Positions 24,035 through 58,510 of a stretch of DNA of 64,000 nucleotides are shown in pieces. The first letter of the stretch is position 1, and every line of letters begins with the position of its first letter. Position numbers and translations under genes: made by a program. This stretch comes from Allokutzneria sp. A3M-2-11 16 (GTDB lineage: Bacteria; Actinomycetota; Actinomycetes; Mycobacteriales; Pseudonocardiaceae), in contig NZ_JANAVO010000004.1 of the NCBI RefSeq assembly GCF_024213555.1, positions 124,001 to 188,000 on the forward strand. The letters are read 5' to 3'. Under the pieces are notes generated by a model. That model was given only the letters and a program-made list of their open reading frames with translations. It had not been told where the DNA came from and did no database searches.

Positions 24035-24178
24035 CCGGGGTCCTCGCCCCGGCTCATGTGGGCACAGCGCTACTGGAGTTCCTGGCTCCTCTTCTCAGAG
24101 TCACAGTGGCGGGACCGCGCCGGACTTCCACCGGCTTCCTCCGCGTAGCGCTGTTCGCCGTGACCATACTCGGCAAGT
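24035..24178 (-). promoter_or_regulatory. Cobalamin (B12) riboswitch controlling cobN
   Basis: Read on the minus strand, the spacer contains the aptamer core AGCCGGTGGAAGTCCGG, the run CGGTCCCGCCACTGTGA (P3-P6 core) and the B12-box-like GAGCCAGGAACTCC, in the order and spacing of a cobalamin riboswitch (about 24178 down to 24061). Downstream, CCGGGG-loop-CCCCGG (24052-24035) forms a hairpin whose 3' arm runs into the GGGGGAG Shine-Dalgarno-like stretch of cobN, a plausible translation-blocking platform. Ligand-bound state would shut cobN off. Confidence 0.88.
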
Positions 24179-40922: not shown

Positions 40923-42359
40923 TTAGCTGGGTTGGGGTTCCTGGGCGGAGAGCCAGTCGGCCAGGCCGCACACGGCGTCGCGGCAGCCACCGCAGCCGGT
41001 GGTGGCCCGGGTCGCGTCGGCGAGGGCCCCGGTGCTGCGGGCGCCGGCGCGCCACGCGGACACCAACTGTCCCTTGCTGACGGTGTTGCACCGGCAGATC
41101 ACCGCGCTCGCGGGCAGGTCGGCAGGACCTGCCTGAGCGACCGGCGACAAAGCTCGGCCCAGCAACAACGCCAGCCGGTCGGCGGGAGCGGGAGCACCGC
41201 GGTCGTAGAGCTGGGTGATCACGGCGGCGGCGTCGGGGGCGCCGAGCAGGATCGCGCCGGTCACCCGGTCCTCGCGGAGCACGAGCTTGGCGTAGCGGCC
41301 GCGCGTCGGGTCCTCCAGGCGCAGCACCTCCGCGCCCGGCTCGTCCGGTTCGGTGTGCACCTCGCCGAGCGCGGCCAGGTCGATGTCGCGGGCCTTCAAG
41401 CGGGTCACCACGGGCGTGCCCAGGTAGCGGGAACTCGGGTCCGCGCCGGTGAGCAGGTCGGCGAGCACGACCGCCTGGTCCCACGCCGATTGGACCAGGC
41501 CGGACACGGTGCCGGGGTGCTCGGCGCAGTCCCCCAGCGCGAAGATCCGCGGATCGCTCGTGCGCAGGGCGTTGTCGACGACGATCCCGCGCTCGACGGT
41601 CAGGCCGCACGAGCGGGCGAGATCAGCGGAAGGACGCACCCCGGCGGAGACCACGACGAGGTCGGCGGGAACGTGGCTGCCGTCGTCCAGCTTGAGCCCG
41701 TCACCGGGCAGGTACCGGGTCGCGAGCACGCCGAGCCGAAGCTCGATCCCCAACGTGCGCAAGGACTTCGCCAGCGCGGCGCCTGCCTGTGCGTCGAGTT
41801 GCCGCTCCATCAGGTGATCGACCGGGTGGACGACCGTGACGAGGTTTCCCCGGCCCGCCAAGCCCCGCGCGGCCTCAAGCCCCAACAACCCGCCGCCGAG
41901 CACGGCGACAGGCGACCCGGGCGCGGTCGCGGCCACGATCCGCGCGCAGTCGTCGAGCGTGCGGAACGTGTGCACGCCTTCCGCCAGGGAACCGTCGTCC
42001 GCGCGCAGTCCCTCGGTCGGCGGAACCCACGGCTCACTTCCCGTCGCGAGAACCAAAGCGTCGTAGGGCAGGGTTTCCCCATCCGCGAGAACGACCGCAC
42101 GGACTGATCTGTCCACAAAGGACACTTCGGTGTCCAGCCGCAGATCGACGTGCTCCGAACCGCGCAACCGCACCGCGTCAGGCGCGAGCGACCCGGCGAG
42201 CACCGATGACAGCAGCACCCGGTTGTACGCGGTGTGCGATTCCGCGCCCACGATCGTCAGTGAGACGCGCTCGCCCTTCGGGTCACGCCGCCGAACTTCC
42301 TCGGCCAGCCGCGCTCCGGCCATGCCGTAGCCGACGACGACCACTCGCCTCGGGCTCAT
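40923..42359 (-). CDS. FAD-dependent NAD(P)H oxidoreductase with BFD-like [2Fe-2S] domain (nitrate reductase electron-transfer subunit)
   Basis: 478 residues. An FAD/NAD(P)H pyridine-nucleotide-disulfide-type reductase (VVVVGYGMAGARLAEE, VLATGSEPWVPP, VLGGGLLGLEAARG, ALGDCAEHPG) is followed by a C-terminal BFD-like domain with cysteines in VICRCNTVSKGQL and TTGCGGCRDAVC. It resembles NasB/NasC-type electron donors and the N-terminal half of NirB. ATGA overlap with nasA shows they are translated together; it should pass electrons from NAD(P)H to NasA. Confidence 0.88.
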   Translation of the reverse strand: MSPRRVVVVGYGMAGARLAEEVRRRDPKGERVSLTIVGAESHTAYNRVLLSSVLAGSLAPDAVRLRGSEHVDLRLDTEVSFVDRSVRAVVLADGETLPYDALVLATGSEPWVPPTEGLRADDGSLAEGVHTFRTLDDCARIVAATAPGSPVAVLGGGLLGLEAARGLAGRGNLVTVVHPVDHLMERQLDAQAGAALAKSLRTLGIELRLGVLATRYLPGDGLKLDDGSHVPADLVVVSAGVRPSADLARSCGLTVERGIVVDNALRTSDPRIFALGDCAEHPGTVSGLVQSAWDQAVVLADLLTGADPSSRYLGTPVVTRLKARDIDLAALGEVHTEPDEPGAEVLRLEDPTRGRYAKLVLREDRVTGAILLGAPDAAAVITQLYDRGAPAPADRLALLLGRALSPVAQAGPADLPASAVICRCNTVSKGQLVSAWRAGARSTGALADATRATTGCGGCRDAVCGLADWLSAQEPQPS

Positions 42360-44389
42360 GTCACCGCCTCCAGTCGGACCGCGCACACCTTGAACTCGGG
42401 CATCCCGCTGATCGGGTCGAGCGCCGGATTGGTGATCAGGTTCGCGCGCTGCTCGCCGGGGAAGTGGAACGGCAGGAACACCGTGTCGATCCGCATTCCT
42501 TGCACGCAGCGGACTTTCGCGAGCACTTCACCGCGTCGGGAACAGATCCGCGCCACATCGCCTTCCGCGAGACCGGCTCGGTCGGCGGTGTCGGGGTGCA
42601 CTTCGACGAACGCCTCCGGCACAGCCGCGTTCAGCTCCGGAACCCGACGCGTTTGCGCCCCGGATTGGTAGTGCTGCAAAACCCTTCCCGTGGTCGCGCT
42701 GAGCGGATAGTCATCGTCGGGAAGTTCAGCTGGCCCGCGGTGGTCCACGGGAACCATTCGCGCCTTGCCGTCCGCGTGCGCGAAGCGATCGAGGAACAGC
42801 CTCGGCGTTCCGGGATGCCTTTCGTCCGGGCACGGCCAGTGCAAGGCTTCTCCAGCACGCAGGCGTTCATAACTGATTCCCGCGTAGTCGGCGACGCCAC
42901 CCGCGCTCGCCCTGCGCAGCTCCGCGAAAACCGATTCCTCGTTGACCGGGAACCGTTCCGCGGGCTGCCCGAGCCGGACGGCCAGCTCGTGCAGCACTTC
43001 GAGGTCAGTGCGCACTCCAGGAGGCGGCGTGACAGCGCGGCTGCGCAGGAGAACGCGTCCTTCCAGATTGGTCATCGTGCCGCCTTCTTCCGCCCACTGC
43101 GTCACAGGGAGCACAACGTCGGCCAGCACAGCCGTTTCCGACAGCACGAAGTCGGCGACCACCAGGAAATCCAATGCCGCCAAGCGTTCCGTCACGTGAG
43201 CGGAACGCGGGGCGGACACGGCGATATTGCTGCCGAACACCATCAGCGCGCGCGGTCCGACACCCAGGGAATCCAGCAGCTCGTAAGCCGACTTTCCCGG
43301 TCCCGGCAAGGATTCCGGGGCGACTCCCCACACTTCTGCGACGTGTTCCCGCGCGGCCGGATCATCGATCTTGCGATAACCCGGCAACTGGTCGGCTTTC
43401 TGGCCGTGTTCCCGGCCGCCCTGCCCGTTTCCCTGGCCGGTCAGACAGCCGAATCCGGAGCCCGGCCGCCCTGGCAGGCCCAATGCGAGGGCGAGGTTGA
43501 TCCACGCCGACACCATGTCGGAGCCGCTGGCGTGCTGCTCCGTCCCGCGCGCGGTGAGCACATAAGCGTTGGTGGCACGAGACAATACGGCGACCGCGCG
43601 CCGCTGATCAGCCGCCGATACGCCAGTGACCCGCTCCACCTGTTCCGGCCACCACCGCGCGGCGACTTCCCACGTTTCTTCGAAACCGATGGCGCGCTCC
43701 GACAGGTAGTCCTTGTCCACATACCGTTCAGCCACCGCGACATGCAGGAGCCCGAGCGCGAGGGCCAGATCCGTTCCGGGCGTCGGAGCGAGATGCACCG
43801 CAGCTTGTTCAGCGGTCGCGGTGCGGCGCGGATCGACCACGACGAGCCCGCCCGAGTCGATTGCCCGGCGGAGGTGCTGGACGAACGGCGGCATCGTCTC
43901 GGCGACGTTCGCCCCGACCAGGAGAACGGCGTCAGCGTTCGAGAGATCGGTTACCGGGAAAGGAAGCCCTCGGTCGACCCCGAACGCGCGAATGCCCGCC
44001 GCCGCGGCAGAGGACATGCAGAAGCGGCCGTTGTAGTCGATCTGCGAAGTGCCGAGCGCCACTCTGGCGAACTTGCCGAGCAGATAGGACTTCTCATTCG
44101 TCAGCCCACCGCCGCCGAAGACCGCGACGGAATCCGGCCCGTGTGCGGCCCGCAACTCCAGAAGCCGTTGCGCGACATGGTCGAGCGCCTCGTCCCACGA
44201 TGCCGGGCGCCCCTGGACGAGCGGGGTCGTCAGCCTGCCCGGGGTGTTCAGCAGCGCGGCCGAGGTCCAGCCCTTCTGGCAAAGTCCGCCTCGGTTGACC
44301 GGGAAGTCCCGCGGCACGACCGCCGGACCTGGCTTGACCGTCATTCCGCACTGCAGGGCGCAGTACGGGCAGTGTGTCGGAGTCGGCAC
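42356..44389 (-). CDS. nasA: Assimilatory nitrate reductase catalytic subunit NasA
   Basis: 677 residues, cytoplasmic molybdopterin-guanine-dinucleotide enzyme reducing nitrate to nitrite. The N-terminal [4Fe-4S] motif is CPYCALQC with the fourth Cys in GGLCQKGW; the Mo-ligand Cys is in YNGRFCMSSAAAAG. Other family blocks are GSNIAVSAPRS, TQWAEEGGTMTNLEGRV and the C-terminal MopB segment LITNPALDPISGMPEFK (key LDPISGMPEFK). Slightly shorter than many NarB/NasA proteins and without a C-terminal BFD domain, which is supplied by its partner gene. GTG start with AAGGGGGTG upstream. Confidence 0.93.
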   Translation of the reverse strand: MPTPTHCPYCALQCGMTVKPGPAVVPRDFPVNRGGLCQKGWTSAALLNTPGRLTTPLVQGRPASWDEALDHVAQRLLELRAAHGPDSVAVFGGGGLTNEKSYLLGKFARVALGTSQIDYNGRFCMSSAAAAGIRAFGVDRGLPFPVTDLSNADAVLLVGANVAETMPPFVQHLRRAIDSGGLVVVDPRRTATAEQAAVHLAPTPGTDLALALGLLHVAVAERYVDKDYLSERAIGFEETWEVAARWWPEQVERVTGVSAADQRRAVAVLSRATNAYVLTARGTEQHASGSDMVSAWINLALALGLPGRPGSGFGCLTGQGNGQGGREHGQKADQLPGYRKIDDPAAREHVAEVWGVAPESLPGPGKSAYELLDSLGVGPRALMVFGSNIAVSAPRSAHVTERLAALDFLVVADFVLSETAVLADVVLPVTQWAEEGGTMTNLEGRVLLRSRAVTPPPGVRTDLEVLHELAVRLGQPAERFPVNEESVFAELRRASAGGVADYAGISYERLRAGEALHWPCPDERHPGTPRLFLDRFAHADGKARMVPVDHRGPAELPDDDYPLSATTGRVLQHYQSGAQTRRVPELNAAVPEAFVEVHPDTADRAGLAEGDVARICSRRGEVLAKVRCVQGMRIDTVFLPFHFPGEQRANLITNPALDPISGMPEFKVCAVRLEAVT

Positions 44390-49908: not shown

Positions 49909-50836
49909 CGCCCACCTCCGATCCTGCGACGGGGTCCCGGAACAGGTCCGCGACCTGGTGGCGGCGCTGCTCCAGCCGGTGCAGCGACAGGTCCAGGTCG
50001 ACCACGGCGTCCCGGATCACGTCGTAGGTCTTGTCGTCGTCGAAGCGCACCAGCAGTTCCCTGCCCTGCTCGCGGACTTCGAGCCCGGCGGCGGCCAGGC
50101 GCGCGACGAGCTCGTCGACCCGCTCGTCCACCTCGACCGCGAGGACGCCCTTGTGCTGGGTCATCGCCGACAGCGAGTCCGAGCGCAGCAGCCGCCCGCC
50201 CTCGATCGCCACGAGCGAGGTGCAGATCCGCTCGATCTCCCCCAGCAGGTGCGAGCAGACCACCACGGAGATGCCGAACTCGGTGCCGATGCGCTGCACC
50301 AGGCCGAGCATGGCCTGCCGGCCCTCCGGGTCGAGCCCGTTGGTCGGCTCGTCCAGCAGCAGCAGCTCCGGGTCGTGCACCAGCGCCTGCGCGAGCTTCA
50401 CCCGCTGCTTCATGCCGGTGGAGTAGCCGCCGATCGCCCGGTAGCGCTCCTCGTAGAGCCCGACGTGGCGCAGCGTCTCGGACGCGCGTTCCCGTGCGGT
50501 CGCCGCGGGCAGCCCGGACATCCGCCCCATGTGCGTCACGAACTCCGCCGCGGTCATGTCCGGTGGCAGGCAGTCGTGTTCGGGCATGTAGCCCACCTGC
50601 GACCGCACCTGCTCCACATCGGTGAGGGGGTCCAGCCCCAGCACCCTGATCCGCCCCGCCGTCGGTGCGATCAACCCCAGAGCCAGCTTGATCAGCGTGC
50701 TCTTCCCCGCCCCGTTCGCACCGACCAGCCCGACGACGCCGGGCTCGATGCTCACCGTCAGGTCGGCGAGGGCGAGTGTCCCGCCGCCGTACCGTTTTTC
50801 GAGCGATTCGCTCTCGATGAGTGTCACGGTGTGCAC
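49892..50836 (-). CDS. ABC transporter ATP-binding protein
   Basis: 314 residues. Walker A LVGANGAGKST, signature YSTGMKQRVKLAQAL, Walker B LLLLDEPTNGLD, and H-loop CSHLLGEIERI. A second ATPase of the same exporter operon, only distantly similar to the first, so the complex is probably a heterodimer. GTG 50836 lies within the selD 3' end (13-base overlap); a GTG three codons later is possible. Confidence 0.9.
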   Translation of the reverse strand: MHTVTLIESESLEKRYGGGTLALADLTVSIEPGVVGLVGANGAGKSTLIKLALGLIAPTAGRIRVLGLDPLTDVEQVRSQVGYMPEHDCLPPDMTAAEFVTHMGRMSGLPAATARERASETLRHVGLYEERYRAIGGYSTGMKQRVKLAQALVHDPELLLLDEPTNGLDPEGRQAMLGLVQRIGTEFGISVVVCSHLLGEIERICTSLVAIEGGRLLRSDSLSAMTQHKGVLAVEVDERVDELVARLAAAGLEVREQGRELLVRFDDDKTYDVIRDAVVDLDLSLHRLEQRRHQVADLFRDPVAGSEVGDVQHA

Positions 50837-51897
50837 ACTACGGCCGGCGGCCGGGGGACCACATCGGGTTCGGCCCTGGGAATCCCCCTAAGGGCTTGCC
50901 CTATTTTCACGACGATCGCGTTGTCCCGCTGGGGAATCAGCTCTCCGATCACCACTCCGCCGGAGACCTCGCCCGCGACCAGTAAACCACCCGAAGTCTG
51001 AGAGTCTGTCAGCAACAGCGCCTCCGTTTCTTCCACTGTGGACAGATCAACGTGCGGCCGCACCCAGTCGAGGTTCCGACGGCTCCCACCGCTGACGAAA
51101 CCGTCCCGCACCGCCTCCCTGGCACCGTCCAAATAGGGCACCGCTGCGGCGTCGACCACCGCGCTCACCCCGCTGGCGCGGACGAGCTTGTACAGGTGCC
51201 CGAGCAGCCCGAACCCGGTGATGTCGGTGGCACAGGTGATTCCGGCGGCCACCGCGGCCACCGAGGCGTCCCGGTTCAGCGCGGTCATCGCCTCGACCGC
51301 CTGCGGGAAGACCTCGCCGGTGGCCTTGTGCCGGGTGTTGAGCACGCCGATCCCCAGCGGCTTCGTCAGCGACAGCGGCAGCCCGGCGCGGCCCGCGTCG
51401 TTGCGCAGGGTCCTTGCGGGGTCAATGATTCCGGTGACGGCCATGCCGTACTTGGGCTCCGGGTCGTCGACGCTGTGCCCGCCCGCGACGTGGCACCCGG
51501 CGGTGGCGGCGACGTCCCGCCCGCCGCGCAGCACCTCCGCGGCCAGTTCCATCGGCAGCACCTCCCTGGGCCAGCCCAGCAGGTTCACCGCCACGACCGG
51601 CGTGCCGCCCATGGCGTAGACGTCGGAAAGCGCGTTCGCGGCCGCGATCCGGCCCCAGTCATAGGGATCGTCGACCACCGGGGTGAAGAAGTCGGCGGTG
51701 GCGACCAGCGCCAGGTCCGGCCGCACGCCGACAACGGCCGCGTCATCCCCGGTGCCCAGACCGACCAGCAGTTCTCCGGCGGGATGCTCCGGCCGCGCCC
51801 CGGTCAACCCGGCGACGATCTGCTCCAGTTCGCCCGGCGGGATCTTGCAGGCGCACCCGCCGCCATGGGCGTATTGGGTGAGACGGTAGGAGATCAT
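50824..51897 (-). CDS. selD: Selenide, water dikinase (selenophosphate synthetase) SelD
   Basis: 357 residues. It makes selenophosphate from selenide and ATP. The mobile N-terminal loop AHGGGCACKIPP has Cys15 where E. coli has essential Cys17 and Lys18 for its Lys20, so this copy is a Cys, not a Sec, form. AIR-synthase-like blocks LGTGDDAAVVGV, AANALSDVYAMGG, VAGGHSVDDPEPKYG and TDITGFGLLGHLYKL are intact. It diverges from the tRNA-Sec gene with 34 bases between, so selD and selC-selA-selB are probably fired from one divergent promoter region. Confidence 0.96.
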   Translation of the reverse strand: MISYRLTQYAHGGGCACKIPPGELEQIVAGLTGARPEHPAGELLVGLGTGDDAAVVGVRPDLALVATADFFTPVVDDPYDWGRIAAANALSDVYAMGGTPVVAVNLLGWPREVLPMELAAEVLRGGRDVAATAGCHVAGGHSVDDPEPKYGMAVTGIIDPARTLRNDAGRAGLPLSLTKPLGIGVLNTRHKATGEVFPQAVEAMTALNRDASVAAVAAGITCATDITGFGLLGHLYKLVRASGVSAVVDAAAVPYLDGAREAVRDGFVSGGSRRNLDWVRPHVDLSTVEETEALLLTDSQTSGGLLVAGEVSGGVVIGELIPQRDNAIVVKIGQALRGIPRAEPDVVPRPPAVVCTP

Positions 51898-51931: not shown

Positions 51932-52023
51932 GGAGGTGTATCCGGTCTGGTGACCGGCGCGGTCTTCAAAACCGTTGAGCGGCAGCACCTGTCGCTGGCG
52001 GGTTCGATTCCCGTCCACCTCCG
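51932..52023 (+). tRNA. selC: tRNA-Sec (UCA anticodon)
   Basis: 92-nt selenocysteine tRNA. Acceptor GGAGGTGT pairs with CCACCTCC (seven clean pairs; the eighth, T with C, is a mismatch), long six-pair D-stem CCGGTC-TGGT-GACCGG, anticodon arm GCGGT-CTTCAAA-ACCGT with anticodon TCA, extended variable arm AGCGGCA/TGTCGCT, and T-arm GCGGG-TTCGATT-CCCGT. The 8+5 layout and long variable arm are diagnostic. Discriminator G at 52023; CCA is not encoded. selA begins 15 bases later. Confidence 0.95.
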
Positions 52024-52038
52024 CTTGCCGGGCCTGCC

Positions 52039-53304
52039 ATGACGGACCCGCGGCGGAACATCCCGCGCACCGACGCCCTCCTCTCGTCTTTCGCCTACGC
52101 TGTTGGAGAACTCGGCACGGCCACCGTGAAAGCGGCGATCGTGGCTGCGCAGCAACGGGCTCGCGCCGGCGAGATCGCTCCGTCCGAAGTGGCCTCCGCC
52201 GTCGCGGCGGCACTGCCGGCAGGTCCGCGGCGCGTGATCAACGCGACCGGGGTCGTCGTGCACACCAACCTCGGCCGCGCTCCCCTGTCGCCCGCGGCCC
52301 GCGCTGCGATCGACGCCGCCGCGGGCACCACGGACGTCGAGTTCGACCTCGCCACCGGGGCGCGGGCGCGACGCGGGCGGAGTGCGCTCGCGGCGCTCGC
52401 CGAGGCCGTGCCGGACGCGGGCGGAGTGCACGTGGTCAACAACAACGCTGCGGCTTTGCTGTTGTGCGCCTTGGCGTTCGCACCGGGTCGGGAGATCGTG
52501 ATCAGTCGTGGAGAACTGGTCGAGATCGGTGACGGCTTCCGCATCCCCGAGCTGCTGCGCTCCACCGGCGCGCGGTTGCACGAAGTCGGGACGACCAACC
52601 GCGTCCACCCGCGCGACTACGCCGACGCCGTCGGTCCTTCCACGGGCTTCATCCTGAAGGTGCACCCGTCCAACTTCGAGGTCACCGGCTTCACGTCCAC
52701 TGTGGACATAGCGGAGCTGACCGGTTTCGGCGTCCCGGTGATCGCGGACATCGGCTCCGGCCTGCTCGCGCCACATCCGCTTCTGCCCGACGAGCCGGAC
52801 GCGGCGACGGCTCTGCGCGCCGGGGCGAACCTGGTCACGGCGAGCGGCGACAAGCTCCTCGGCGGCCCGCAAGCCGGATTGCTGCTCGGCGACGCCGACC
52901 TCGTGGAGCGGCTTCGCCGACACCCGGCGGCCAGGGCACTGCGGGTCGACAAGCTCACCCTTGCCGCCTTGGAGGCCACTCTGCGCGGGCCGCTTCCCCC
53001 TGTGCGCCAAGCACTTGAAGCTCCTGTCGAGGCTTTGTTCGAGCGCGCGTCCGCTCTGTCCACGTTGTTGCGCAACGCGGGAATTTCCGCTGATGCAGTG
53101 CGCTGTGTGGCGGCCGTGGGCGGCGGTGGCGCTCCGGGTGTCGAGCTGCCGTCTGCCGCGGTGAGCCTACCTGCGGAGTACGCGGAATCGTTGCGGTTGA
53201 GCGAAACTCCCGTAGTGGGCCGGATCGAGCGCGGGCGGTGCCTGCTCGACCTGCGCACGGTCCACGACGATTCTCTGTTACTGCAAGCGGTTCTGGGCTG
53301 CTGA
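52039..53304 (+). CDS. selA: L-seryl-tRNA(Sec) selenium transferase SelA
   Basis: 421 residues, PLP enzyme converting Ser-tRNA-Sec to Sec-tRNA-Sec with selenophosphate. Family blocks: VINATGVVVHTNLGRAPLS, VNNNAAALLLCALAF, ISRGELVEIGDGFRIPELL and the Schiff-base lysine in TASGDKLLGGPQAG (K272). Co-transcribed with selC and coupled to selB (TGATG overlap). Confidence 0.96.
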   Translation: MTDPRRNIPRTDALLSSFAYAVGELGTATVKAAIVAAQQRARAGEIAPSEVASAVAAALPAGPRRVINATGVVVHTNLGRAPLSPAARAAIDAAAGTTDVEFDLATGARARRGRSALAALAEAVPDAGGVHVVNNNAAALLLCALAFAPGREIVISRGELVEIGDGFRIPELLRSTGARLHEVGTTNRVHPRDYADAVGPSTGFILKVHPSNFEVTGFTSTVDIAELTGFGVPVIADIGSGLLAPHPLLPDEPDAATALRAGANLVTASGDKLLGGPQAGLLLGDADLVERLRRHPAARALRVDKLTLAALEATLRGPLPPVRQALEAPVEALFERASALSTLLRNAGISADAVRCVAAVGGGGAPGVELPSAAVSLPAEYAESLRLSETPVVGRIERGRCLLDLRTVHDDSLLLQAVLGC

Positions 53305-55010
53305 TGCGAGTCATCGCCACAGCCGGGCACGTTGACCACGGCAAGTCCACCCTGGTCCGGATGCTCACCGGCATGGAGCCGGATCGCTGGGCGGAGGAGC
53401 GGCGGCGCGGTCTCACCATTGACCTCGGCTTCGCGTGGACAACCCTCGAAGACGGCTCGGAGATCGCGTTCGTCGACGTGCCGGGGCACCGGAAGTTCGT
53501 GCCGAACATGCTTTCCGGGATCGGACCGGTGCCAGCGGTGATGTTCGTGGTGGCCGCCGACGAAGGCTGGATGCCGCAGTCCAGCGAGCACCTCGCCGCC
53601 CTGGACGCTCTCCGCATCGAGCGCGGCGTGCTCGTGATCACTCGCTCCGACCTCGCTTCGCCGAGCCGTGCGCTCGCTGAAGCGAGGGAACGCCTTGCTG
53701 CGACCTCGCTTGCGGGGATCGCGCACGTCGTGGTCAGCGGGGCGACCGGCGCGGGGCTGGACGAGCTGCGTTCGGCCTTGTCTTCGTTGGAGCTTCCGGC
53801 TCCGGACACGGCTGCCGATGTGCGGCTGTGGGTCGATCGCTCGTTCAGCGTTCCCGGGGCGGGGACCGTGGTCACCGGCACGCTCACAGGTGGAACATTG
53901 CGCGTGGGTGACGAACTGCTGTTAGGCGGTTCTCATGTCACGGTGCGTGGCCTCCAATCGTTGGGGCGCAAGGAAGGTTCGATTCAAGCTGTCGCCCGCG
54001 TCGCGGTGAGCCTGCGCGGAGTGGATCGTGACGCCGTCCACCGCGGCGACGCGCTCTTGACGCCCAGCCGATGGCTGGACAGTTCCACTGTGGACGTTCT
54101 CGTTTCACACGAATTGCCTTCTCAGGTGACGCTGCACATCGGTTCGGCTTCGGTTCCCGTGAGCGTCCGTCCACTGGGGACCCCTGCGGCACGCCTCACG
54201 TTGTCGCGCGCGCTGCCGCTGCGGATCGGAGATCGCTTGCTGCTGCGGGACCCTGGCAGTTCGACGATCGTGGGCGCTTCCGTCGCGGACCTCGATCCCC
54301 CTCCGTTGACTCGACGCGGAGCCGCACGGGCGCGCGCGGATGAGCTGGCTTCACCGTTTGAACTCCAGTTGCGACAACGGAAGTTCGTGCACCGGGACCG
54401 GCTGCGCGCCATGGGACTGCCGCACGACGGTCCGGAGTGGCGGGTCGACCCGGACCGCTGGGCGAGCTTGACCGAGCGACTCAAGTCCGAAGTGGACAGT
54501 TGGCCGCCGCTGGATCCGGGCCTGCCGGTGACCGTGGCACTCCAGCGGCTGAACATGCCCGCGGCACTGATCGGTGACCTGGCGACGGCAGCGGGGTTGC
54601 TTGTCGTGGGTGGAAGGCTCCAGCGGTCCGAGAAGGCGGAACTGCCCGCACGCGTCGAAGCCGCGCTGGTGACGCTGACGCGAGAGCTGCGAGCAGATCC
54701 GTTCGCGGCGCCGGACGCGCACCGTCTGGCCGAACTCAAGCTGGGGCAGAAGGAACTCGCCGCGGCGGTGCGCGCGGGACGCTTGGTGAAGGTGACGGAA
54801 GGGGTCGTGCTGCTGCCGGAGGCCATCGAGCTGGCGCGGCGCGTCCTGGCGCGGTTGGAGCAGCCGTTCACCGTGAGTCAGGCCCGTCAGGCACTGAGTA
54901 CCACACGCCGCGTCGCCGTTCCGCTGCTCGAAACGCTCAACCGGATGGGCCTCACCGAACGCCTTGCCGATTCCCGGCACGTAGCGCACGTAACGGCTCA
55001 CGGTCAGTGA
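53304..55010 (+). CDS. selB: Selenocysteine-specific elongation factor SelB
   Basis: 568 residues from ATG 53304; the frame is open further upstream but that part overlaps selA. EF-Tu-like GTPase: G1 AGHVDHGKST (8-16), G3 DVPGHRKFV, and a G4 variant ITRSD in place of NKxD. Domains II/III follow, and the C-terminal 200 residues contain winged helices that bind SECIS RNA, ending in AFGKAFGI-poor, rather short form. It delivers Sec-tRNA to UGA codons. The stop overlaps the next gene's GTG (GTGA), coupling translation of the redox genes to the Sec machinery. Confidence 0.94.
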   Translation: MRVIATAGHVDHGKSTLVRMLTGMEPDRWAEERRRGLTIDLGFAWTTLEDGSEIAFVDVPGHRKFVPNMLSGIGPVPAVMFVVAADEGWMPQSSEHLAALDALRIERGVLVITRSDLASPSRALAEARERLAATSLAGIAHVVVSGATGAGLDELRSALSSLELPAPDTAADVRLWVDRSFSVPGAGTVVTGTLTGGTLRVGDELLLGGSHVTVRGLQSLGRKEGSIQAVARVAVSLRGVDRDAVHRGDALLTPSRWLDSSTVDVLVSHELPSQVTLHIGSASVPVSVRPLGTPAARLTLSRALPLRIGDRLLLRDPGSSTIVGASVADLDPPPLTRRGAARARADELASPFELQLRQRKFVHRDRLRAMGLPHDGPEWRVDPDRWASLTERLKSEVDSWPPLDPGLPVTVALQRLNMPAALIGDLATAAGLLVVGGRLQRSEKAELPARVEAALVTLTRELRADPFAAPDAHRLAELKLGQKELAAAVRAGRLVKVTEGVVLLPEAIELARRVLARLEQPFTVSQARQALSTTRRVAVPLLETLNRMGLTERLADSRHVAHVTAHGQ

Positions 55011-55702
55011 TCGATAAGCGGCTTGTGGCTGAACAGCAACTAGACCTGATCTCGCCGAGCGGCGGTCGGGTACGGGTGGCGCTCCCGGGCACGGCGCCGG
55101 TATCCAGCGTGGTCACGGGCGTGCGGTTCGCCGGTGGGTCTTATGGAACCGGGTTCCAAATGGGACCGCGTGGCTACCACGACTTCGCGTGCACCCACGT
55201 CGCCCCGGCAACACCGCGCGAGCGGCTGGTCGTCCACGGCCGCGAAGTGCTGGTCGCGGAGGCGAACGACGGCGAGTCCTCGGTGGCCACGCTGATCGGC
55301 ACGTACCACGAGCTGATGACCGTCTTCGCCGGACCGGCACCGCGGCGCGACCGGGTGTTCTCACTGTTCAACTCGCTGACGATCACCGACAACAGCGGCG
55401 GCATGGTGGTGCGGCCGCGTTCGGCGACGCTGCTCGACACCATGTCCGAGCAGGTCGTCGTGGTGGTGAAGGACTACGGTTCGGTGTCCATTCCCGGCCC
55501 CAGGCAGGCGAGTGCGCTCGTGCCGAGGCACGCGGGCGCCCCGACCACGCACGGCGAGGTGTGGAAGGCCGCCTACCCAGGCGGTTTCGCGTTCATCCTG
55601 GGCTGTTCGCGCGGCGTGGCCGAGGTGCACCTGACCGGCACCACGCAGGAGCACCTCGACTGGCTCGACGGGATCAACGTGTCGTGGCGGGATGCGAGCT
55701 GA
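55007..55702 (+). CDS. Protein of unknown function in the sel-linked redox operon
   Basis: 231 residues, no signal peptide or transmembrane helix, rich in beta strands. Segments such as GFQMGPRGYHDFACTHVAP, FSLFNSLTITDNSGGMVVRP and HGEVWKAAYPGGFAFILGC could not be assigned to a family. Two cysteines (about residues 62 and 202). GTG 55007 overlaps the selB stop by four bases and the next gene overlaps its stop, so it is the first gene of a four-gene group (55007-57419). It may be the soluble partner or enzyme subunit of the secreted redox system. Confidence 0.8.
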   Translation: MIDKRLVAEQQLDLISPSGGRVRVALPGTAPVSSVVTGVRFAGGSYGTGFQMGPRGYHDFACTHVAPATPRERLVVHGREVLVAEANDGESSVATLIGTYHELMTVFAGPAPRRDRVFSLFNSLTITDNSGGMVVRPRSATLLDTMSEQVVVVVKDYGSVSIPGPRQASALVPRHAGAPTTHGEVWKAAYPGGFAFILGCSRGVAEVHLTGTTQEHLDWLDGINVSWRDAS

Positions 55703-56211
55703 TGTCTGCTGAACTGGCCTTCTACCTGATCACCTGGGCCGCGATCATCGTGCTGTTCCTCGGGCTCGTCGCGACGCTGCGCGAGGTCCGGCTGCTGCGC
55801 GCCGTCGTCATGCGCGACCCGGACGGTTTCGCCGCCGCGCAACCGGATGTGGTGCTCGGCGGGGTGTTCGCCGACGGCACCTCGCGGCCGATCGTCGCCG
55901 CCGTGGACTCCGGCTGCCCGCTGTGCCGGGTTGTGGTCGATGAGCTGGCACAACGCGCTCCGCACGCGAAGCTGCTGACGCACGAGTCCCCCTCGGTGTG
56001 GAGCGGCGCCGGGCTTGAGATCATCAGCGACCGCGAGGCGTGGCGGGCGGTCTCGCACCTGTCACCGCCGGTGTTGATGCACGTGGACGGCGGCGGGGCC
56101 GTGCGGAGGATGACGTTGCCCGTGCGCGTCGAGGAGCTTGACGGCTGGATCGACACCGACTCTGACTTGAAGGGAGCCGTCGATGTCGTTGACGCTCGAT
56201 CGGATTCCTGA
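55702..56211 (+). CDS. MauD-like membrane-anchored thioredoxin-fold protein
   Basis: 169 residues. One N-terminal transmembrane helix (about 6-27, FYLITWAAIIVLFLGLVATL) is followed by a basic stretch and an extracytoplasmic domain with AAVDSGCPLCRVVVDELA, a CxxC pair at C72/C75. This layout matches MauD, the thiol protein needed to mature the cysteine-rich small subunit of methylamine dehydrogenase. It overlaps the Tat-exported protein gene by 29 bases, its presumed client. Confidence 0.65.
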   Translation: MSAELAFYLITWAAIIVLFLGLVATLREVRLLRAVVMRDPDGFAAAQPDVVLGGVFADGTSRPIVAAVDSGCPLCRVVVDELAQRAPHAKLLTHESPSVWSGAGLEIISDREAWRAVSHLSPPVLMHVDGGGAVRRMTLPVRVEELDGWIDTDSDLKGAVDVVDARSDS

Positions 56212-56734
56212 CCACGACCAGGCTCCCCCGGCCGCGGAGCCGTCCCGTGCGCTGTCTGGGCTGAAGATCACCGGAGCCCGGCGGACCGTGCTCAAGGCGA
56301 TGGCGCTCGGCGCGGTGACCTTGGGCGCGTCGGCACTGAGCTGGCCGAGGGCCGCGCGGGCCGAGACCGGCAAGTACGGCATGCAGGGGTGGGACCGCAA
56401 CGACTGCAAGGACGCCTATCCCGTTGGCTACGAGGTGAAGGGCGACACCAGCGGCGCCTACGTGAACACCTACGGCGCGTGCTTCAACGGCGCCTGGCGG
56501 GGCAGCACGTTCTGCGACGGCGGCTGGCACAAGTACGGCACGTGGAACGACAACGGCATCCAGGCCGACCACGCGCCGACCGCAACCGCTTGTGGCACAA
56601 CGACAACGAAGAACGCGTGGAAGTGGACCACGCCGGACGGGATCGTCTACCGCTGCTCTGACGGCTTCACCACGTACTGGGGCGGCGGGCACACCGGGCA
56701 GACCTACCTGACCATTTGCCGGGCGATCGTCTGA
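56183..56734 (+). CDS. Tat-exported six-cysteine protein (MauA-like)
   Basis: 183 residues. Twin-arginine signal GARRTVLKAM (R33-R34) with a hydrophobic core and likely cleavage after ARA at residue 60. The mature part has six cysteines (DCKD, GACFN, TFCDG, TACGT, YRCSD, TICRA) and many Trp and Tyr residues. The size, Tat signal, cysteine wealth and ending TYLTICRAIV recall the light chain of methylamine dehydrogenase (MauA), though MauA has about twelve cysteines and a Trp-derived cofactor; the link is suggestive only. Shine-Dalgarno AAGGGAG precedes the ATG. Confidence 0.65.
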   Translation: MSLTLDRIPDHDQAPPAAEPSRALSGLKITGARRTVLKAMALGAVTLGASALSWPRAARAETGKYGMQGWDRNDCKDAYPVGYEVKGDTSGAYVNTYGACFNGAWRGSTFCDGGWHKYGTWNDNGIQADHAPTATACGTTTTKNAWKWTTPDGIVYRCSDGFTTYWGGGHTGQTYLTICRAIV

Positions 56735-56735
56735 C

Positions 56736-57419
56736 ATGCGGTGGCACCCGTTGACGATCGCCGTGGGCGTCCTGCTCGCGGCGATCGCCTGCGCGGTGTG
56801 GTGGCCGCCGTCGATGTGGCTGCTGATGGGCGCGGCCGCGGGCTTCGCCACCAGCGGCAGCACTTGAAGCAAGAACTCGGCATTCGTGCTGAGCTCGCCG
56901 GTCCGGCGAGGTTCCCCTCTGGTGGCGTTCTGCGCCGGTCTCGTCGTCGGCGGTGCGCTGACCGCGACGGGTCTGGTCGTCGTCGGGTCCCTGATCCGCG
57001 CGCCACTACCCGACGCTGTCCGCTGGTCGATCGTGGCCGCGGCCCTGGTTCCCGTGCTGCTGCGGGATTTCGGCGTGCTGTCCTTCGCACTGCCGGAGAA
57101 CCGCCGCCTCGTGCCGGAGAGCGTGTTCCGCCTGGGCCCGCACCTCGGTCCGCTCCAGTTCGGCATCGAGATGGGCACCGCGATGCGCACCTACCTGCCC
57201 AGCGGGCTGCCCTACATCGGCGGCCTCGTCGTGCTGCTGTTCGCGCCGCTGCCGCTGGGGTTGTGCGCCGGGGTGGGCTTCGGCCTCGGGCGGGCGCTGA
57301 TGACCACGTCGAACGTGCGCTACCGCGGCGATTGGGACGCTGAGTGGGCCCGGCACGCCCGCACGCTCGCCGCCCTGATGACCGCCGCCTTCGTGCTCGG
57401 CCTGCTCATCCTGTCGTAA
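56736..57419 (+). CDS. Candidate selenoprotein: MauF/DsbD-like membrane protein with in-frame UGA at codon 44
   Basis: A single frame of 228 codons runs from ATG 56736 to TAA 57419, broken only by TGA at 56865-56867. If UGA is read as Sec the product is 227 residues with about six transmembrane helices: two before Sec44 (LTIAVGVLLAAIACAVWW, MWLLMGAAAGFA) and the rest after. Sec falls in GFATSGST-U-SKNSAF, a place comparable to the redox cysteine at the end of the first helix pair in DsbD/CcdA/MauF proteins. Bridging codons keep strong G/C third positions, and the GTG at 56886 has no Shine-Dalgarno and lies in a hairpin loop. The alternative is two genes: a 43-residue protein (56736-56867) and a 177-residue one (56886-57419). 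Confidence 0.55.
56876..56910 (+). promoter_or_regulatory. Candidate bacterial SECIS element (two abutting hairpins after the UGA)
   Basis: Hairpin 1 is CTCGGCA-TTCG-TGCTGAG (56876-56893; seven pairs including one G-U, UUCG tetraloop). Hairpin 2 is CTCGCC-GGTCC-GGCGAG (56894-56910). They abut without a gap, starting eight bases after the UGA. The GGUC in the second loop recalls the SelB-binding loop of the E. coli fdhF element. Bacterial SECIS elements lie just downstream of the UGA inside the coding sequence, as here. Confidence 0.45.
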
Positions 57420-58468: not shown

Positions 58469-58510
58469 ATGACCGCCGCATTCGTGCTCAGCCTGCTCCT
58501 CCTGTCGTGA
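58469..58510 (+). repeat. 42-bp direct repeat, copy 2
   Basis: Repeats the end of the candidate selenoprotein gene (would encode MTAAFVLSLLLLS and a TGA stop). The four differences from copy 1 are at 58480, 58490, 58499 and 58509, three of them at third codon positions or the stop, so it looks like an old coding duplicate or a fragment of a homologous gene end. Confidence 0.8.

Follow-up and report, generated by a model that had tools for sequence, protein, structure and literature searches.

Can a UGA codon within the frame of a putative membrane-protein gene, a short distance downstream of the genes for selenocysteine (Sec) synthesis, be read as Sec, and what might such a protein do? The question is raised by a 64,000-nucleotide stretch of the genome of Allokutzneria sp. 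A3M-2-11 16 (Pseudonocardiaceae, Actinomycetota; contig NZ_JANAVO010000004.1, positions 124,001 to 188,000), which we call the window. A reading made from the letters alone, referred to here as the sequence-only reading, proposed a new selenoprotein gene at window positions 56736-57419 (gene D). Here, we describe a computational analysis of that proposal; genomes and loci from the comparative sets carry G and L numbers, respectively. The analysis leaves us close to certain that 56736-57419 is one gene in which UGA would encode Sec, and only slightly less sure that its product is a Sec-containing MauF-type membrane protein. These inferences come from sequence comparison, and neither Sec in the protein nor translation beyond the UGA has been shown directly.

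The locus and the reading frame of gene D

Between 51932 and 57419, tRNA-Sec, selA, selB and four further genes, called A to D, are encoded on the plus strand, with selD upstream on the opposite strand:

50824-51897, minus strand: selD, selenide water dikinase, Cys form (CACKIPP); TIGR00476, 391.8 bits against a cut-off of 125
51932-52024, plus strand: tRNA-Sec (selC); ARAGORN tRNA-SeC, anticodon tca; RF01852, 84.1 bits (51932-52022)
52039-53304, plus strand: selA; TIGR00474, 410.8 bits against a cut-off of 267.9
53304-55010, plus strand: selB; TIGR00475, 270.3 bits against a cut-off of 242.25; winged-helix domain PF09107
55007-55702, plus strand: gene A, 231 amino acids; no Pfam or NCBIfam match
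55702-56211, plus strand: gene B, MauD/thioredoxin-like; D-x-x-CPxC motif; no Pfam match
56183-56734, plus strand: gene C, Cys-rich, with a twin-arginine-type N terminus (from the alignment of C homologs)
56736-57419, plus strand: gene D, predicted MauF-like multi-helix membrane selenoprotein; 227 residues, Sec at codon 44
56865-56867, plus strand: UGA codon of gene D, inferred to be read as Sec; conserved column in homologs
56876-56893, plus strand: first hairpin 3' of the UGA; 56876-56881 pairs with 56888-56893
56894-56910, plus strand: second hairpin, SECIS-like; 56894-56900 pairs with 56904-56910, GGU(C) apex at 56900-56903, UGA +33

Genes between selB and D overlap or almost abut, and the gene calls, tRNA prediction and family matches agree with the original description of gene D as the fourth gene after selB in a run headed by selC-selA-selB. 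The accompanying statement that the window holds no formate dehydrogenase is right in substance: the sole match resembling a formate dehydrogenase alpha subunit falls below the family cut-off, and its ORF (42356-44389, minus strand) has no in-frame TGA and carries Cys within a GRFCMSS stretch. By eye, this ORF encodes a nitrate-reductase-like molybdopterin oxidoreductase, with no sign of a Sec enzyme, and the adjoining ORF (40923-42386, minus strand) a FAD/NAD-type reductase. Two other observations concern the window at large. A cobalamin riboswitch match lies at 24076-24141 on the minus strand, and the last 40 nucleotides before the end of gene D (57378-57417, at its 3' end) recur, 93% identical, 1.1 kb downstream at 58469-58508, perhaps as the remnant of a duplication or as an insertion scar.

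A reading-frame check confirmed that the ATG at 56736 and the TAA at 57417-57419 share one frame with a single TGA between them, at 56865-56867. The readthrough product is 227 residues long, with codon 44 as U in GFATSGST-U-SKNSAF. The codons that bridge the TGA and the next possible start had been described as rich in G or C at the third position, and the GC content there is indeed 0.83 over the six codons after the TGA, with values of 0.98 for codons 1-43 and 0.92 beyond the bridge. Codon-position differences upstream of the UGA relative to two congeners (5, 1 and 3, and 2, 1 and 3, at positions 1, 2 and 3) are too few to inform. The closest named relative found is Allokutzneria sp. NRRL B-24872, at 88% identity.

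The UGA column in relatives

Whether homologs of gene D carry UGA or Cys at the Sec column was the main check proposed by the sequence-only reading, and it has now been run on sets of increasing breadth. Scanning of genome contigs gave UGA in 9 of 9 gene D loci. A search of relatives found a gene D match in 6 of 60 genomes, and the full-length frames from both searches have exactly one stop each, a TGA, within SGS[TAV]-U-[ST]xNSA. When close relatives were aligned, all 14 rows had UGA in the same column, with the motif kept on both sides. In the bacterial family of the window, 51 of 297 genomes have a gene D match, 48 in the UGA form and 3 as divergent or partial copies without the TGA; the motif SGS[TSAV]-U-[ST]xNS could be read in every one of the 48. 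The TGA-less copies have the motif deleted (G215), have lost it (G192) or amount to about 70 residues (G316). Degenerate copies L047 and L048 (G215 and G192, both of genus g5) read GSGD---RRH and SAGASAGASSA in place of the Sec motif, and other species of genus g5 keep the UGA. A second D copy in G033 is also degenerate or partial.

The class-level set gave a gene D match in 21 of 394 genomes. Besides the window's genome, the SGS-type form has UGA in the same column in 13 of 13 genomes, three of which contain a second UGA copy, while a distant form (n = 7) reads xTWSP-U-GxS in five cases and xTWSP-C-GxS in two. With a profile of the distant form, matches were found in 53 of 296 genomes of the phylum set, Cys copies and partial hits included, and among the 50 loci read the column is UGA in 41, Cys in 5 and undetermined in 4. 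The motif before the Sec column is more variable at this depth (LFGP-U-GLS, for example); G723 and G891 also have UGA at this column. Partial hits without a readable motif are those of G881, G952, G970 and G807, and G919 (two partial hits) and L158 (G744) have one TGA each with the motif pattern not matched. Cys marks at L071 and L101 are chance occurrences of the pattern.

Several genomes hold more than one copy. Two UGA-type D copies each are present in G110, G131, G500, G361 and G468 (L028 with L054, L032 with L053, L097, L103 with L104, and L070 with L087), and the two copies of G500 share a single locus, one on each strand. G799 combines a Cys-type MauF (AWSPCGFSM) with a UGA paralog (STGUGTSM), in L145 and L164, and possesses SelA, SelB and tRNA-Sec. 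A scan of three loci for further UGA genes near D copies produced nothing clear.

Co-occurrence with the Sec machinery

Three outcomes had been named that would refute a Sec codon: homologs in which the parts before and after the UGA are separate genes with other spacing or frames, a column without Cys in relatives, and UGA copies in genomes lacking selB. Only the last of these was encountered, and only in part, as UGA copies without complete Sec machinery in two draft genomes.

For the family table, tRNA-Sec was used as the marker because SelB is not cleanly identified by TIGR00475, with EF-Tu scores near 1e-60. Presence was defined as E < 1e-12 in a bimodal distribution, positives falling below 1e-12 and the rest above 1e-8. 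By this measure tRNA-Sec is present in 47 of the 48 genomes with the UGA gene versus 155 of 249 without it (Fisher p 4.6e-8, uncorrected for kinship; n = 297), where G192, G215 and G316, with TGA-less hits only, are counted as lacking the UGA gene. The single UGA genome without tRNA-Sec, G161, has SelA and SelB. Genus g67 is divided along the same line: tRNA-Sec was found in each of the 8 sampled genomes that have the UGA gene and in none of the 8 that lack it. A side observation concerns G316, which has tRNA-Sec (1.1e-15), no SelA or SelB, and the D fragment of about 70 residues; recent loss or an assembly gap is possible.

A second look at SelA and SelB was limited to 23 chosen genomes. The six Cys-only genomes (G332, G426, G720, G758, G779 and G831) have no SelA and no SelB over the cut-off (0 of 6 for each), and their best tRNA-Sec scores are 46-55 bits against an Rfam cut-off of 47. 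Second-best tRNA-Sec hits elsewhere reach 52.8 bits, which makes G332, at 55.2 bits, a borderline case. Scores in the phylum set are not cleanly separated, with 56.5 bits for the UGA genome G754 versus 55.2 for the Cys genome G332. Seven UGA genomes of the phylum set lack a clear tRNA-Sec, and five of them have SelA and SelB over the cut-off. The two draft genomes are G942 (73% complete), which has a UGA copy and no SelA, SelB or clear tRNA-Sec, and G891 (94% complete), which has a UGA copy and only a SelB-like fragment; both exceptions may reflect incomplete assemblies. The proposal that UGA copies track tRNA-Sec, SelA and SelB, and Cys-only copies their absence, is upheld apart from these two.

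The window's genome has three formate-dehydrogenase-like matches, none with an in-frame stop. Two Sec formate dehydrogenases, sought as a positive control, were found in family genomes without D (26 genomes searched, 30 loci scanned). In the other 24 of these genomes, which have tRNA-Sec and no D, the scanned loci (L118-L199) contained no Sec formate dehydrogenase.

A SECIS-like hairpin downstream of the UGA

Bacterial SECIS elements present G or GGU at the apex of a hairpin just after the UGA, and the loop of the E. coli fdhF element is GGUC. Among the segments scanned in 100 distinct UGA contexts of gene D, the most stable is the 42-nucleotide segment that begins 3 nucleotides after the UGA, with a mean of -18.9 kcal/mol; the mean is -12.7 kcal/mol for the segment 6 nucleotides earlier and -11.8 kcal/mol for 7 Cys genes at the main position. 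These contexts were chosen by the motif itself and are related to each other, so that the counts are not independent. Almost all of them (97 of 100) are more stable than their own recoded mean, and so are 5 of the 7 Cys genes, by a smaller margin. Since stability alone is not specific to UGA genes, the telling feature is the GGU apex. A hairpin of at least 5 bp with a GGU apex at +30 to +36 occurs in 82 of the 100 contexts (56 of 60 of the SGS type, 26 of 40 of the distant type), where synonymous recoding would lead one to expect 11.5% and 8.1%, and it occurs in none of the 7 Cys genes. By this test the apex is missing from 18 UGA contexts, 14 of them in the distant group.

Covariation was assessed separately for the two groups. 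The SGS set consisted of 26 rows, obtained from 27 representatives by excluding L088 and L089, which have other spacing, and adding the window. In these sequences helix 1 (56876-56881/56888-56893) is paired in 75.6% of cells, and helix 2, the stem of the GGU hairpin, in 97.8%, with two-sided changes at 3 of its 7 pairs. The paired percentage and covariation score of the whole structure were reached by none of 500 shuffles, and both lie above those of all slid versions; two-sided changes occur in 13 cells, no more than in the slid versions, which go up to 14. The distant consensus (25 sequences, L159 of 26 representatives excluded) is weaker. At three of its four apex pairs, between 5 and 8 sequences fail to pair, and it has many two-sided changes. 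Considering that the GGU apex is found in differing codon phases from group to group (for example CCG-GUC and CUC-GGU), constraint on the protein alone is not a sufficient explanation of this apex. The two Sec formate dehydrogenases mentioned above (CNRTUHAPSV) have similar apices after their UGA, GCCGGUCUGGCGG and GUCGGUCUGACGG, with the GGU at +19, whereas that of gene D is at +33.

Relationship of gene D to MauF

Gene D was initially called MauF/DsbD-like on the strength of an unaided comparison, and the two halves of that name have fared differently. The MauF half is borne out by profile alignment, in which the Sec column falls on the cysteine of the MauF motif STWSPCG; MauF of Paracoccus denitrificans (WP_011750949.1) and of Methylobacterium sp. 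DM1 (AWI91945.1) both read STWSPCGYSS. The SGS-type profile aligns with P. denitrificans MauF over 158 columns (probability 95.8, E 7.9e-9), Sec on Cys, and with a profile of nine distant rows, two of them MauF, over 186 columns (E 7.2e-20). An E value of 1.9e-46 to Methylobacterium MauF was not counted because it is circular, that MauF being a row of the alignment used. In a joint alignment of 17 rows, 8 columns are invariant. The Sec/Cys column is among them, and no other column of the alignment has Cys in at least 30% of rows. In the distant Cys relatives and in MauF, one continuous protein spans the junction at which gene D has its UGA. On these alignments we consider the homology of gene D and MauF to be very well supported. 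Because the STWSPCG motif is not met, gene D is filed as a MauF homolog and not as MauF.

The DsbD half has only weak support, with few family matches and no significance in the Foldseek and CcdA comparisons. Nothing in Pfam or NCBIfam matches the window protein significantly, PF02683 and PF13386 included, and NCBIfam gave no match for the 9 members of the distant profile. When the 17 joint members were searched against Pfam, 2 matched DsbD_2 (best E 8.5e-6) and 1 matched DsbD_TM (E 0.001), and it is on account of these matches that a CcdA/DsbD-type membrane fold can be called plausible, and no more than that. Gene D and a CcdA-like protein of the same genome did not align significantly (probability 0.7). 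An AlphaFold model of D (10 rows) consists entirely of helices, with pLDDT 84 and pTM 0.85; the Sec opens the helix at 43-53, a less confident part of the model (local values of about 58-60). A Foldseek search of this model against the PDB returned no significant match (CcdA 5vkv, E 1.4), and PDB sequence searches with the cluster profiles found no significant relative.

The neighboring genes

Forty-six loci of at least 5 kb with a D match were inspected. Within 6 kb, gene A was found in 29, gene B in 16 and gene C in 30, and a sel gene was present in 22 of the 46 loci. These counts are lower bounds, given that the window's own proteins served as queries, that some loci are short and that at least one genome is represented twice. 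By the same token the 14 of 46 loci in which tblastn with the window proteins found D without A, B or C overstate absence, through short flanks and divergent homologs; two of the 14, L094 and L090, do have related genes. The UGA is kept in loci where no sel gene was seen (L057-L060 and L062-L064).

Pfam and NCBIfam gave nothing usable for genes A, B and C. Gene B has an N-terminal hydrophobic stretch, judged by eye, followed by an invariant D-x-x-CPxC (11 rows), and aligns weakly with MauD (hhalign probability 69.8, E 4e-5). In gene C, a twin-arginine pair is invariant and cysteines are conserved. Its product is probably secreted, although the curated Tat model was not passed (E 0.92); the AlphaFold model of C is poor (pLDDT 48.7). 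The idea that C is a methylamine dehydrogenase light chain was dropped, as the profile aligns only the Tat-type N terminus or signal region.

Three distant clusters were also scanned, L090 with a Cys form of D and L094 and L096 with UGA forms. All three have a MauE gene (PF07291) beside D, and L094 has a thioredoxin-like gene nearby as well. Each also encodes, beside its D copy, a Cys-rich LGFP-repeat protein with a Tat-type start:

L094, 6530-8095: Tat-type Cys-rich LGFP-repeat protein
L090, 2596-4047: Tat-type Cys-rich LGFP-repeat protein
L096, 2645-4051: Tat-type Cys-rich LGFP-repeat protein

By eye, but not by profile, these proteins show a C...CPPG...W pattern like that of the methylamine dehydrogenase light chain. 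They were likewise rejected as light chains, the profile aligning the Tat-type N terminus only.

A proposed mechanism and its alternatives

MauD, MauE and MauF have been implicated in forming the disulfides of the methylamine dehydrogenase light chain, and a related scheme can be drawn for gene D. The UGA at codon 44 would be translated as Sec by the SelA-SelB-SelC-SelD system encoded just upstream, with insertion presumably directed by the GGU-apex hairpin about 30 nucleotides after the UGA. The product would be a MauF-type multi-helix membrane protein with Sec in place of the STWSPCG cysteine. This Sec, the only conserved redox residue of D, is inferred to be redox-active, and D may pass electrons to or from protein B, with its CPxC motif, either at the membrane or across it, an exchange that could set the disulfides of the exported, Tat-type, Cys-rich protein C, the inferred client. 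Comparison speaks for the UGA column, the exchange of Sec and Cys, homology to MauF, co-occurrence with the machinery, and a covarying GGU hairpin absent from the Cys copies tested; the actual presence of Sec in the D protein is an inference. A thiol-maturation role for D, B and C, which rests on analogy, is one that we favor by a small margin.

Could the UGA be something other than a Sec codon? One could imagine two adjacent genes that share a frame by chance, a 43-codon gene ending at the TGA and a 177-codon gene starting at GTG 56886. That GTG does open a 177-residue ORF in the standard code, genes in this operon do overlap, and the sequence-only reading had itself worried about a one-in-three chance of a common frame; no Shine-Dalgarno-like stretch was seen before the GTG, by eye only. 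The worry is met by the high third-position GC content on both sides of the TGA together with the same UGA and motif in many relatives, for it is difficult to see how unrelated neighbors would keep one motif across the UGA in 14 close relatives and the further UGA copies, or align across the junction with uninterrupted Cys homologs that include MauF. We give two genes almost no credence. A near-cognate or suppressor tRNA might instead insert some other amino acid without selenium, and there are no protein data that exclude this; G942 and, less clearly, G891 even have UGA copies without complete Sec machinery. Readthrough of this kind would nevertheless have to explain why Cys is the alternative to UGA in this column among the homologs read, why UGA copies track tRNA-Sec, SelA and SelB when none of the six Cys-only genomes has SelA or SelB over the cut-off, and why the GGU-apex hairpin accompanies most UGA contexts and none of the Cys genes. 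It seems very improbable, if a shade less so than a pair of genes. Decay or sequencing error is the least credible explanation of all, to the point that we would discount it: G215, G192 and the second copy of G033 are truly degenerate, but elsewhere there is a single stop, always TGA, always in the same column of an otherwise intact frame, in many genomes of several families. Sec remains by far the best reading of this codon.

The role of the protein is much less settled. Gene D may encode a selenoprotein that does something other than mature the thiols of C (it might, for instance, transport selenium or a metal, or sense redox state), and we regard this as a serious contender, though one we do not prefer. 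The cluster has no known activity, a relationship between C and MauA could not be demonstrated, and the loci that have D without A, B or C, even allowing for the overcount of absences, fit such a role. The MauE genes adjoining all three distant D copies scanned, the thioredoxin-like gene in L094, the CPxC of B and the homology of D to MauF point back to thiol maturation. A broader form of the thiol-maturation scheme is speculative, and we think it less likely than not: Actinomycetota might possess a selenium-run export-and-oxidation system, made up of a single-Sec membrane conduit, a membrane-anchored thioredoxin-like partner and a Tat-type Cys-rich protein with a possible unknown (perhaps amino-acid-derived) cofactor. 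The system would use a two-hairpin SECIS variant with the GGU 14 nucleotides further from the UGA than in the formate dehydrogenase of the same bacterial family, and in many genomes the Sec machinery may be retained on account of D rather than of formate dehydrogenase.

Novelty and significance

A 2026 review tabulates 119 prokaryotic selenoprotein families, many under NCBIfam accessions, and neither MauF nor any methylamine protein is listed among them in the part of the article available to us (PMC13188914). Within the available portions of PMC12013277, PMC9312934, PMC1794560, PMC5029168, PMC5322559 and PMC5330540, no mention of methylamine was found. We found no literature linking selenoproteins or selenocysteine to methylamine utilization, MauE or MauF in a search that did not extend to preprints, supplementary tables or most subscription papers, so that an unseen report is possible. 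The gene D family is almost certainly a selenoprotein family, one that many actinobacteria have and that the published lists checked do not include, insofar as these were accessible.

Standard gene calling would split genes of this family into two pieces. With gene D, the sel genes would have a client in a genome where none of the formate-dehydrogenase-like matches contains an in-frame stop, and the UGA-type D genes constitute a large natural collection from which the actinobacterial SECIS can be defined. To our knowledge, how MauF acts is unsolved, and the contrast of Sec and Cys in MauF-type proteins offers a direct test of whether MauF is a redox carrier.

Comparison with known systems

Among known bacterial selenoproteins, those that are membrane or membrane-linked by name include YeeE/YedE, a mercuric transport protein, the SO_0444 Cu/Zn efflux protein and the TsoB rhodanese/DsbD fusion; they share with gene D a Sec in a membrane-protein context, and none is named MauF in the part of the review that could be consulted (PMC13188914). 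The likeness of gene D to CcdA and DsbD lies in its being a predicted multi-helix membrane protein and in the S-P-C that distant members carry near the N terminus, while the difference is that the gene D family has one conserved Cys/Sec column and no second conserved Cys in the joint alignment. How close, then, is gene D to MauF? The surroundings are not those of a mau operon. No mauB-mauA pair was recognised among genes A to C by Pfam and NCBIfam (and, for C, by profile), A and C match no known family, and the window cluster lies directly 3' of the sel genes. At the motif itself, STWSPCG of MauF stands against SGST-U-SKN of the window protein, in which the Cys/Sec position and the Ser two residues before it are kept and the rest differs. 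Where MauF has Cys, gene D would have Sec in the same place.
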